64,000 bases of DNA from Candidatus Pelagibacter communis (GTDB lineage Bacteria > Pseudomonadota > Alphaproteobacteria > Pelagibacterales > Pelagibacteraceae): assembly GCF_012932795.1 (NCBI RefSeq), contig NZ_LANA01000002.1:62001-126000 (forward strand). The letters are read 5' to 3'. Below the pieces are notes generated by a model that was not told where the DNA came from, ran no database searches, and saw nothing but the letters and a program-made list of their open reading frames with translations. The position numbers and the translations under genes are program-made. Shown here piece after piece: positions 19,462 through 57,797 of the stretch (its first letter is position 1; every line of letters starts with the position of its first letter).

Positions 19462-21795
19462 ATGTATCAAATTATTAAAAAAATATTTATACTAGTTTTA
19501 AGCTTTAGTTTACTAAGCGCATTTTTTATATTAGCCATTTTATGGGCTTTTTCTAATAATTTACCAGATTATAAATTTCTCAAAAATTATAAACCAGCAG
19601 TTTCAAGTAAAGTTTATTCAGGTAATGGAGAATTAGTGAATGATTTTTCAACTGAGAAAAGAATTTTTGTTCCCTACAATGCGATATCAGAAAAAGTAAT
19701 AAAATCCTTCTTATCTGCTGAAGACAAAAATTTTTACTCTCACCCTGGAGTTGATGCGAAGGGAGTATTAAGAGCTGTAATAAATAATATATCAAATATT
19801 GTATCTTCAAAAAGGTTAGAAGGAGCTTCAACTATAACTCAGCAAGTAGCAAAAAATTTTTTATTAACAAATGAGGTAAGTTTAAATAGAAAAATAAAAG
19901 AAGCAATCTTAGCATTCAGAATAGAAAGAGCTCTTTCAAAAGAAAGAATATTAGAATTATATCTAAATCAAATTTATCTTGGAGGAGGAGCTTATGGAGT
20001 GGCATCTGCAAGTTTAGAGTATTTTGATAAATCCATCAGTGAATTGAATTATGATGAGGCTGCATTATTAGCCGCATTACCAAAAGCACCAAGCAGATAC
20101 AATCCCTATAAAGATATAGGACTTGCTAAGTTTAGAAGAGACCTAGTTTTAAAAAATTTATATGAAAATAACTATATAAAAAAAATTGAATATGAAAAAT
20201 TTATTAATAAAAAAATAATATTAAAAAAACGAAAAAAAAATCTTGCTGAAGACACCAGTTATTATGTTGAAGACATTAGAAAAGATGTGGTTAATCAATT
20301 AGGCTTTGATAAAGTTTATAAAGAGGGATTGAATATAAGTACACCAATTAATTTAAGTTTACAAAAAATTGCCATTAAATCTCTAAGAAAAGGTTTAATA
20401 AGTTATGATAAAAGAAAAGGATGGCGTGGACCGCTGTTAAAAAAAAAAAATTTAAAAAATTGGAAAGATCAGATAGGAAAATTAAAATTAGAAAAATCAA
20501 TTAACTGGAATTTAGCAATAGTAAAAAAGATTGATAAATTTTCTATAGAAATTGAAACTGAGAATGAGTCTAATGGTATTATTCAATATGAAAATATTTC
20601 TTGGATCAAAAAAGAATTTAAAGACATACTAGAAGTTGGGGATGTAATCTATGTAGAAAAAATAAACAACAATGTATTTGCTTTGAGACAACTGCCTATC
20701 GTGAACGGAGGTATAGTTGTGATGGACCCATTTACAGGAAGAGTTTTGGCATTAAGTGGAGGGTTTAGTTTTCGAAAAAGTGAATTTAATAGAGCGACGC
20801 AAGCATTGAGACAACCTGGCTCTGCATTTAAACCATTTATTTATGCTCTAGCACTTGAAAACGGTTACACCCCATCAACTTTAATTTTAGATGCTCCGCT
20901 AGTTTTAGAACAAGGTACAGACTTAAAAATGTGGAAGCCAGAAAACTATGGAAAAAAGTTTTATGGTCCTTCCACTTTAAGAATGGGATTAGAAAAATCT
21001 AGAAACTTGATGACAGTTAGGATAGCTCAAAATCTTGGTTTAAAAAAAATAGTTAATTTTTCAAAACAATTGGGTATTTATGAAAATCCTAGCGAGCTTT
21101 TATCAATATCGCTAGGGTCAGCAGAAACAACATTGTTAAAACTTACGTCTGCTTATTCATCTTTTGTCAATGGTGGTAAGTTAGTAAAACCAATAATGAT
21201 TGATAGAATTCAAGATAGTGAAGGGAATACCATTTTTAACAATGAAAAAAGAAAATGTATAAATTGTGATCAAATATCTTTTTTAAATAAAAATTATCCT
21301 GAGATAGAAGATAAATTTCCCCAGATTTTTTCTGCTCAAACAGCTTATCAGATGACTTCAATATTGGAAGGGACTGTGCAAAATGGAACAGGAAAAAATT
21401 TAAAAAATCTCAATTTAGACTTGGCTGGAAAAACAGGGACTACTAATAGTAATACAGATACATGGTTCATAGGGTTTACTTCCAAGCTTGCAATAGGCGT
21501 ATATGTTGGATCAGATAATCCAATGTCATTAGGAAAGTATGAAACAGGAGCAAAAACAGCGTTGCCAATTTTCAAAAATTTTATAAAAGATGCGGTTAAA
21601 AAAGAAGACGCAAGACCCTTTAAAGTTGCTGATGGTATTTTGCTTAGAGTTATTGACCCGATAACAGGTGAAAAAGCACTTACAGATAGTAATTCTACTA
21701 TAATAGAGGCTTATAAAAATGTTAAAAATAATAACATATTAAATCAAGATATTAGTAATAGATTAAAAAATAATAATATATTAAAGTTTTATTAA
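19462..21795 (+). CDS. mrcA: Penicillin-binding protein 1A (bifunctional)
   Basis: This class A penicillin-binding protein combines glycosyltransferase and transpeptidase activities for peptidoglycan synthesis (777 residues). It has an N-terminal membrane anchor (ILVLSFSLLSAFFILAILWA). The glycosyltransferase motif SAEDKNFYSHPGVD carries Glu87, followed by GASTITQQVAKN. The transpeptidase motifs are SAFK (S454), SRN (513-515) and KTGT (657-660). An OB-like insert lies between the domains. The stop TAA overlaps the prfB ATG (TAATG), so the two genes are translationally coupled. Confidence 0.95.
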   Translation: MYQIIKKIFILVLSFSLLSAFFILAILWAFSNNLPDYKFLKNYKPAVSSKVYSGNGELVNDFSTEKRIFVPYNAISEKVIKSFLSAEDKNFYSHPGVDAKGVLRAVINNISNIVSSKRLEGASTITQQVAKNFLLTNEVSLNRKIKEAILAFRIERALSKERILELYLNQIYLGGGAYGVASASLEYFDKSISELNYDEAALLAALPKAPSRYNPYKDIGLAKFRRDLVLKNLYENNYIKKIEYEKFINKKIILKKRKKNLAEDTSYYVEDIRKDVVNQLGFDKVYKEGLNISTPINLSLQKIAIKSLRKGLISYDKRKGWRGPLLKKKNLKNWKDQIGKLKLEKSINWNLAIVKKIDKFSIEIETENESNGIIQYENISWIKKEFKDILEVGDVIYVEKINNNVFALRQLPIVNGGIVVMDPFTGRVLALSGGFSFRKSEFNRATQALRQPGSAFKPFIYALALENGYTPSTLILDAPLVLEQGTDLKMWKPENYGKKFYGPSTLRMGLEKSRNLMTVRIAQNLGLKKIVNFSKQLGIYENPSELLSISLGSAETTLLKLTSAYSSFVNGGKLVKPIMIDRIQDSEGNTIFNNEKRKCINCDQISFLNKNYPEIEDKFPQIFSAQTAYQMTSILEGTVQNGTGKNLKNLNLDLAGKTGTTNSNTDTWFIGFTSKLAIGVYVGSDNPMSLGKYETGAKTALPIFKNFIKDAVKKEDARPFKVADGILLRVIDPITGEKALTDSNSTIIEAYKNVKNNNILNQDISNRLKNNNILKFY

Positions 21796-56259: not shown

Positions 56260-56604
56260 ATGAATTTAAAATTTATTTATAAAATTTGCTTAAAATCAGA
56301 ATTAGATGATGCAAAAAATAAAAATCAATTTTTAGGTTCCAAAAAAGATTTGGAAGATGGCTTTATTCATTTCTCAGGAGAAGATCAGGTTAAAAGTACA
56401 CTTAAAAAATTTTATTTAAATCAAAAAGGTTTAATTCTATTAAAAGTAGATACTTTAAAGCTTGATCATTTACTTTGGGAACAAGCATCAGATGGAAATA
56501 TGTTTCCTCACTTATACTCTCCACTAGATATGACTAACGTAGTTAATGAAATTGAAATTACTTTAAGAGATGATGGTTCACACGTATTACCAAGTAACTT
56601 TTAA
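56260..56604 (+). CDS. DUF952 protein
   Basis: This 114-residue DUF952 protein shows FIYKICLKSELDDAKNKNQF, DGFIHFSGEDQVKSTLKKF and MFPHLYSPLDMTNVVNEIEI. Its structural family is related to ADP-ribosyltransferase-like folds, but function is not established. It lies 6 bp after DUF924 and ends the operon. A GC-rich hairpin starts at its stop codon. Confidence 0.88.
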   Translation: MNLKFIYKICLKSELDDAKNKNQFLGSKKDLEDGFIHFSGEDQVKSTLKKFYLNQKGLILLKVDTLKLDHLLWEQASDGNMFPHLYSPLDMTNVVNEIEITLRDDGSHVLPSNF

Positions 56605-56642
56605 GGGGGACACCCTTTCAGAAAACTCCAAAAGAGTTCCCC
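56605..56642. other. GC-rich hairpin after DUF952
   Basis: AACTC (56624-56628) and GAGTT (56634-56638) form a stem with a CAAAA loop, extended by GGGG (within 56605-56609) pairing with CCCC (56639-56642) across a bulge. It lies in a small GC-rich patch that stands out from its surroundings. Confidence 0.55.
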
Positions 56643-56664
56643 TATAATTTAGCGATATACGCAA

Positions 56665-56682
56665 AATCCATAATAATGGATT
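56665..56682. terminator. Hairpin with T-rich tract, candidate terminator of the DUF952 operon
   Basis: AATCCAT and ATGGATT form a perfect 7-bp stem around AATA. On the plus strand it is followed by GTTATGTTTTTGTTTTTC, giving an intrinsic-terminator shape for the operon ending with DUF952. Confidence 0.5.
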
Positions 56683-56786
56683 GTTATGTTTTTGTTTTTC
56701 TTAACTTTGATTACTAAATCACACCAGTTATGTGTCAGGCGGTGATAAATTCATAATCGCGCCTCCTTTGTTGATAAAATAAATAT

Positions 56787-56816
56787 AACATTTTTGAAAA
56801 CTTCATTCAAAATGTT
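56787..56816. terminator. Hairpin downstream of SMR gene, candidate terminator
   Basis: AACATTTTTGAA (56787-56798) pairs with TTCAAAATGTT (56806-56816) with one bulged T and a 7-nt loop. On the minus strand it is followed by ATATTTATTTT, fitting termination of the SMR operon. The same bases contain the -35/-10 pair of the candidate small transcript. Confidence 0.5.
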
Positions 56817-56894
56817 TATTTAAATAAGCTTGTTGAATACAACCTAGCTAAGTAGTAATATCTCGATAATTTATCAAACCTTTATCAAAAAGCT

Positions 56895-57230
56895 TTAATT
56901 CAATTTTCCTAAATAGTTAACCATAACAACTCCAGTTATTATTAAGATAATTCCAATTAATCCGTATAAATTTGGAATTTGATTATATTTAATCATAGCA
57001 AATGCCACAACACCCACAACTGTTAATCCGCTGTAAGTAGAATAGGCAAACCCCACTGGAAGTGCATGCATAGCTTTTGCAATGCAAAATAAGCAAACCA
57101 TCATCAGTAGATACATGTAAATTATTGGTAGAGTCTTTGTGAAACCTTCAGATATTTTTGCAAAACTATTAGCAGCTATTCCAGCAAAAATACCAACTGC
57201 TAAAAACAAATATCCAAATAAAGGTTTCAT
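56895..57230 (-). CDS. SMR-family-like membrane protein 1 (no Glu14)
   Basis: This small membrane protein of the EmrE/SMR fold has 111 residues and four segments. It aligns to EmrE around KISEGFTKTLPI (EmrE KFSEGFTRLWP), the LPVGFAYSTYSGL segment, and the last helix GLIGIILIITGVVMVNYL. The essential proton/drug-binding Glu14 of EmrE aligns with a Gly in IFAGIAANSFAK. It is therefore unlikely to be a proton-coupled drug exporter of the EmrE type. It is the last of three tightly linked genes with a related copy two genes upstream, and the two may form a heterodimer. Confidence 0.85.
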   Translation of the reverse strand: MKPLFGYLFLAVGIFAGIAANSFAKISEGFTKTLPIIYMYLLMMVCLFCIAKAMHALPVGFAYSTYSGLTVVGVVAFAMIKYNQIPNLYGLIGIILIITGVVMVNYLGKLN

Positions 57231-57232
57231 AA

Positions 57233-57478
57233 TTAATCCTTAGTTGCAATTCTATTAACAATTGCCTTAGCAACTGGCCCCATAATAAATGCTGCAACTA
57301 TTGCCACAGGAAAAGCAAAAGTAAATGCATTAAAATACCTATCAAAAAATCCATCATTAAAACCTGTATTAACCAAAGTAACAATACAACTCATAATTAT
57401 ACTCATACCAAAAGACATTATGATTAGAAACATAGGTTGAGAAAAATTTTTAGGTAACATAATTTTATTTATTTTCAA
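57233..57478 (-). CDS. DUF2798 membrane protein
   Basis: This 81-residue protein has two membrane segments and fits DUF2798: MFLIIMSFGMSIIMSCIVTL, VNTGFNDGFFDRYFNAFTFA and FPVAIVAAFIMGPVAKAIVN. The function is unknown. It overlaps the upstream SMR gene by 14 bp and lies 2 bp before the downstream SMR gene, a sandwich that suggests a shared membrane complex. Confidence 0.85.
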   Translation of the reverse strand: MKINKIMLPKNFSQPMFLIIMSFGMSIIMSCIVTLVNTGFNDGFFDRYFNAFTFAFPVAIVAAFIMGPVAKAIVNRIATKD

Positions 57479-57797
57479 GTAAGTTTACCATTAAAACACC
57501 AGTGATAATTAAAATTAAACCTATTATAGAATAAATATTTGGTATTTGGTTAAATCTAATAATACCCACAACTACAGTTGAAATAATTGTTAATCCAGCA
57601 AACGATGCATAAGTAATTCCCATTGGGATATTTTTCATTACCATAGACAATGCATACATGCATAAAACTATTGTAATTCCTGTAATAATACTTGGAAGGA
57701 GAAGGGTAAAACCTTCTGCACTTTTTGCGAAACTATTTGATGTTACTCCTAGAACAACTGCTAGAATTAGAAATCCATATGAAGTAGCGAGACTCAT
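57465..57797 (-). CDS. SMR-family-like membrane protein 2 (no Glu14)
   Basis: This 110-residue four-segment protein parallels the SMR protein at 56895-57230: SNSFAKSAEGFTLLLPS, KNIPMGITYASFAGLTIIST and SIIGLILIITGVLMVNLL. The position equivalent to EmrE Glu14 is again Gly (VVLGVTSNSFAK). It is the first gene of the three-gene unit. Paired SMR proteins usually keep Glu14 in at least one partner, so the double loss is notable. Confidence 0.85.
   Translation of the reverse strand: MSLATSYGFLILAVVLGVTSNSFAKSAEGFTLLLPSIITGITIVLCMYALSMVMKNIPMGITYASFAGLTIISTVVVGIIRFNQIPNIYSIIGLILIITGVLMVNLLENK

Follow-up and report, generated by a model that had tools for sequence, protein, structure and literature searches.

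The window analysed here is a stretch of 64,000 nt from Candidatus Pelagibacter communis (contig NZ_LANA01000002.1, positions 62,001 to 126,000). Within it the DUF952 gene stops at position 56604 and the last SMR gene, which is convergent with it, ends at 56895, so that the spacer between them measures 290 bp. Beyond the spacer three small membrane-protein genes stand in tandem (56895-57797), two of them SMR-type, and their order and number differ among relatives. The spacer holds a compact cassette, with the following features:

56605-56894, minus strand: whole cassette, the spacer separating the convergent DUF952 and SMR genes
56833-56845, minus strand: upstream inverted-repeat arm AGGTTGTATTCAA, probable operator
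56799-56810, minus strand: second inverted-repeat arm TTGAATGAAGTT, imperfect here, overlapping the -35 box
56805-56810, minus strand: -35 box TTGAAT, followed by 17 nt to the -10 box
56782-56787, minus strand: -10 box TATATT
56762-56769, minus strand: Shine-Dalgarno (SD) sequence AAAGGAGG, followed by 7 nt and then ATG
56728-56754, minus strand: ORF of 8 codons, MNLSPPDT-stop
56665-56682, minus strand: hairpin H1, AATCCAT...ATGGATT
56652-56662, minus strand: hairpin H2, GCG-TATAT-CGC (GCC-AAARA-GGC in most relatives)
56605-56642, minus strand: hairpin H3, a long stem with a conserved internal loop, probable 3′ end or terminator

The original prediction had named the promoter, the SD, the ORF and two hairpins (H1 and H3), and all of these are present on the minus strand; a third hairpin, H2 (56662-56652), had been missed. 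The patch is GC-richer, as had been claimed (33% versus 29.3% across the window). Of the 60 ORFs in the window that reach 120 aa or more, only two are preceded by GGAGG and none by AGGAGG, which makes the SD of the cassette exceptional in the window. Further GGAGG-ATG starts, opening frames of 6-11 codons that may lie inside genes, occur on the plus strand at 19994, 35640 and 43206.

A BLAST search with the element retrieved seven relatives that are about 79-86% identical to it along most of the sequence, and in addition remoter ones in other gene contexts. A pattern combining the SD, ATG and a PPDT-stop end was found in 140 of 397 SAR11-order genomes, at a single site in each, and the reversed control gave no match among the genomes listed. 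A covariance model was built from 31 sequences using only the RNA after the stop codon. It matched 149 of the same 397 genomes, nearly always with a single strong hit in the same position, and 75 of the 151 genomes that are at least 90% complete, i.e. about half of the well-sequenced SAR11 genomes sampled. Since the search pattern itself favours PPDT whereas the model contains no ORF, the additional hits of the latter provide an unbiased test of the ORF. Those inspected mostly ended in PPDT*, LPDT* or PPET*, with examples such as MSQMPPDT*, MKTPPDT* and, in four genomes, LPDT*. In the sister genus g4 four genomes gave hits (E = 7e-4 to 7e-3), each with a GGAGGAGG site and the ORF MSPPET with a TGA stop. 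One weak hit, L110 (G112:C6:25788-25895), is a degenerate copy with neither operator nor intact ORF, apparently a decaying element, and a weak second hit, L116, lies inside a coding sequence and looks like chance. With stricter filters none of the 287 genomes outside the genus matched, in a set of 289 from the Alphaproteobacteria, and the strict pattern had no match in viral contigs. Every match listed from the GTDB collection (80 of at least 119) belongs to a record named Pelagibacteraceae, Pelagibacterales or Candidatus Pelagibacter.

Across 181 distinct loci the ORF comprises 6-10 codons and encodes M plus one to five variable residues followed by PPDT (176 loci), LPDT (four) or PPET (one). 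Changes in the PPDT codons fall at third positions and are synonymous. Moreover, the 45 distinct inserts between ATG and CCNCC, counted without imposing a reading frame, are all multiples of three, in four different lengths, and GGAGG is conserved 3-8 nt before the ATG in every case. In genus g4 the exchange of D for E in MSPPET* is accompanied by synonymous changes, by a different stop codon (TGA) and by the absence of the CTG that, in genus g1, follows the stop almost invariably. This coding conservation suggests that the ORF is translated. Pro-Pro-X is not found in every member, being replaced in the LPDT* lineage (L105-L108), but all the other loci have PP(D/E). In genus g1 the last codon and the stop occur as a pair, ACT-TAG or ACA-TAA, which are never mixed and are found in at least two lineages; recombination or RNA constraint could be responsible.

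The RNA downstream is structured. Among 71 distinct sequences 98.0% of cells pair, compensatory changes occur at 14 of 22 base pairs and the covariation score reaches 0.278, compared with 0.142 after shuffling (at most 64.7% pairing for slid structures), in an alignment that was fitted to the covariance model and so leans towards it; RNAalifold run on a plain MAFFT alignment already gave 22 pairs, eight of them compensatory. All three hairpins contribute: H1 has 99% of cells paired and compensatory changes in four of six pairs, in H2, 10 sequences have CG and GC exchanged at pair 85-91, and H3 is 97-99% paired with compensatory changes in nine of 13 pairs, although it may partly be an ordinary terminator. 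The SD was predicted to pair with the codons for Pro-Pro at a mean probability of 0.63 over 103 distinct 5′ ends, a value that is partly expected, as CCN CCN complements GGAGG. As a covarying helix this pairing was rejected: it is frequent in folding, yet the base changes do not covary consistently. As judged by eye, several lineages, though not all, have a hairpin over the stop codon (AGCU-GNNN-AGCU). In genus g5, at L112:2549-2760, an extra hairpin CTAGCGAT...ATCGATAG stands immediately 3′ of the MSKLTPPDT stop.

A promoter with a TTGAA(A/T)-like -35 box, 16-17 nt and TANNNT is found in 173 of 179 distinct elements. The promoter hairpin proposed at 56787-56816 does exist in the source lineage but is not a conserved feature; conservation there applies instead to an inverted repeat, GGTTGTATTCAA...TTGAATACAACC, which overlaps the -35 box. 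Its arm GGTTGTATTCAA, allowing minor variants, is present in 165 of the 179 elements, and the second arm reads TTGAATACAACC in many relatives and is degenerate in others. The exact operator core occurs only once in the whole genome, and near-misses are no commoner than in a reversed control, so that the idea of an operator regulon was dropped. The element sits in more than ten gene neighbourhoods. The gene upstream of it may be on either strand, but the one downstream converges on it in 174 of 175 cases. Where relatives lack the element, their DUF952 and SMR genes either overlap (L282, L284) or are separated by 1-3 nt (L279-L281). The element's own promoter, its convergent and varied neighbours and the closed-up element-free sites thus argue for a discrete, self-contained gene. 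Its 3′ end, as judged from H3, is likewise independent of the neighbours, and together with the conserved coding ORF these are the properties expected of a dual-function small RNA.

The reading that we favour, with moderate confidence and on comparative evidence, is that the cassette may be a mini-gene of some 160-170 nt that stands alone and is transcribed independently, whose product would be a small RNA of dual function, both translated and structured, with a ribosome-gated action in trans that does not involve Hfq. It is supported comparatively by the single copy, the convergent neighbours and the gain and loss of the element as a discrete unit where convergent genes meet. The original suggestion of a small RNA element, taken with an ORF that is real, is likewise supported by the conservation of promoter, ORF and stems in relatives, the very comparison it had proposed. 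In such a mechanism a dedicated regulator bound at the inverted repeat would switch transcription, and the strong SD would recruit ribosomes, which might then slow at Pro-Pro-Asp/Glu, a pausing motif when EF-P is limiting, and perhaps further at the UAG-C stop. The extent to which ribosomes occupy the 5′ half would govern the stability or the exposure of the three-hairpin domain, and this domain could act in trans on RNA or protein, independently of Hfq. Hfq was not detected in any of 12 SAR11 genomes, while positive controls elsewhere were, and therefore SAR11 small RNAs must act without it; EF-P is present in all 12. Because of the LPDT* lineage, Pro-Pro is not strictly required and the pause model is not secure. 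A more far-reaching version, which we consider quite doubtful, would see here an RNA class restricted to Pelagibacteraceae, with an ORF of 6-10 codons that ends in P(D/E)T-stop and holds a ribosome in place on a structured RNA standing alone, giving a ribosome-gated trans regulator without Hfq that could, for example, sense translation or EF-P capacity.

The main rival, unlikely but to be taken seriously, is that the peptide itself is the product, i.e. a micro-peptide of 6-10 aa that is recognised or modified at its C-terminal P-(D/E)-T, with the hairpins serving merely as a stable 3′ end and terminator. This would account for a conservation that is limited to the C-terminal residues, and persists despite synonymous changes and the replacement of D by E together with another stop, as well as for the retention of P-(D/E)-T where Pro-Pro is lost. 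However, three covarying hairpins with conserved internal-loop sequence are more than a terminator needs, and no modifying or export gene is constantly linked to the element, whose neighbours vary. At the other extreme, the RNA could be purely non-coding and the apparent ORF a conserved stretch of RNA, as the CTG after the stop and the paired ACT-TAG and ACA-TAA of genus g1 might indicate. This is improbable given that every insert keeps the frame, that the PPDT codons change at third positions and that MSPPET* of genus g4 has TGA and no CTG.

A leader peptide or attenuator acting in cis on a neighbouring gene, also raised in the original prediction, would fit the attenuator-like succession of a short Pro-Pro ORF and hairpins. 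It lacks a co-directional downstream gene, since the next gene is nearly always on the opposite strand and varies by lineage over the many neighbourhoods, and so the element is not a leader. Already contradicted in this way, the idea is hardly tenable, and all that would be left of it is antisense regulation of the convergent gene by read-through. Varied locations, discrete empty sites and the degenerate copy L110 could further point to an insertion-sequence-like or phage-borne element or to a decaying gene remnant. We regard this as very improbable, because the element is single-copy in each genome, gave no viral-contig hit with the strict pattern, has no transposase in sight and keeps its full set of signals under constraint, a conservation that largely contradicts such an origin; the PPDT end and stop codon are in fact its most conserved part, which speaks against a remnant gene start. 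Finally, a regulatory RNA on the plus strand had been envisaged. Promoter, SD and frame all lie on the minus strand, and the structure contains about 80 G-U cells that would become C-A mismatches on the other strand, which fixes the strand as minus.

In line with the earlier statement that no known RNA family was recognised, a search with the Rfam 15 covariance models gave no match in the window at the gathering threshold, and none for 11 loci even at E up to 5; ARAGORN found neither tRNA nor tmRNA in the window. Genome G211, which we take to be HTCC1062, carries the element at 762688-762857, and HTCC7211 and HIMB5 presumably carry it too. This position falls inside an HTCC1062 intergenic region, 762678-763012 (SAR11_0785/qacH), tabulated by Meyer et al. 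2009 with 76 BLAST hits (cut-off 200) and no RNA assigned (PMC2704228). The survey of HIMB5 by Stav et al. 2019 reports three or more sORFs together with the candidates HRC-1 and HRC-2, one of which could be the present element (PMC6429828). No description of the element was found in the literature searched, which comprised main texts and, for HIMB5, main-text passages (PMC6429828). The best reading is that of a dual-function small RNA family new to Rfam.

Among known systems, rnTrpL originates from the attenuator preceding the trp genes. Like rnTrpL/peTrpL of Sinorhizobium meliloti, another member of the Alphaproteobacteria (PMC7298713), the element is a short RNA with a tiny ORF that may act beyond its own transcript, but it has no downstream gene, and its ORF, hairpins and sequence are unrelated. 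The structured SAR11 motifs of Meyer et al. 2009, such as the SAR11_0636 element, are similarly restricted, as far as known, to SAR11 and metagenomes; their neighbours vary and they are thought to be separately transcribed, but they differ in fold and location (PMC2704228). In E. coli, ribosomes pause at PPD and PPE in an EF-P-dependent manner (PMC4140641). Arrest and leader peptides with PPX motifs resemble the element in having Pro-Pro-Asp/Glu close to where a very short ORF ends; unlike these, the element has no regulated downstream gene, and one of its lineages lacks Pro-Pro.

With 6 codons in one genus, the ORF would rank with the shortest conserved ORFs that stand alone. Few ocean bacteria are as abundant as SAR11, whose genomes are highly streamlined and have few regulators. 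A stand-alone element of 290 bp that such genomes keep, lose and relocate must be worth its cost, and it would give a regulatory RNA family open to testing in cultured strains and in existing metatranscriptomes.
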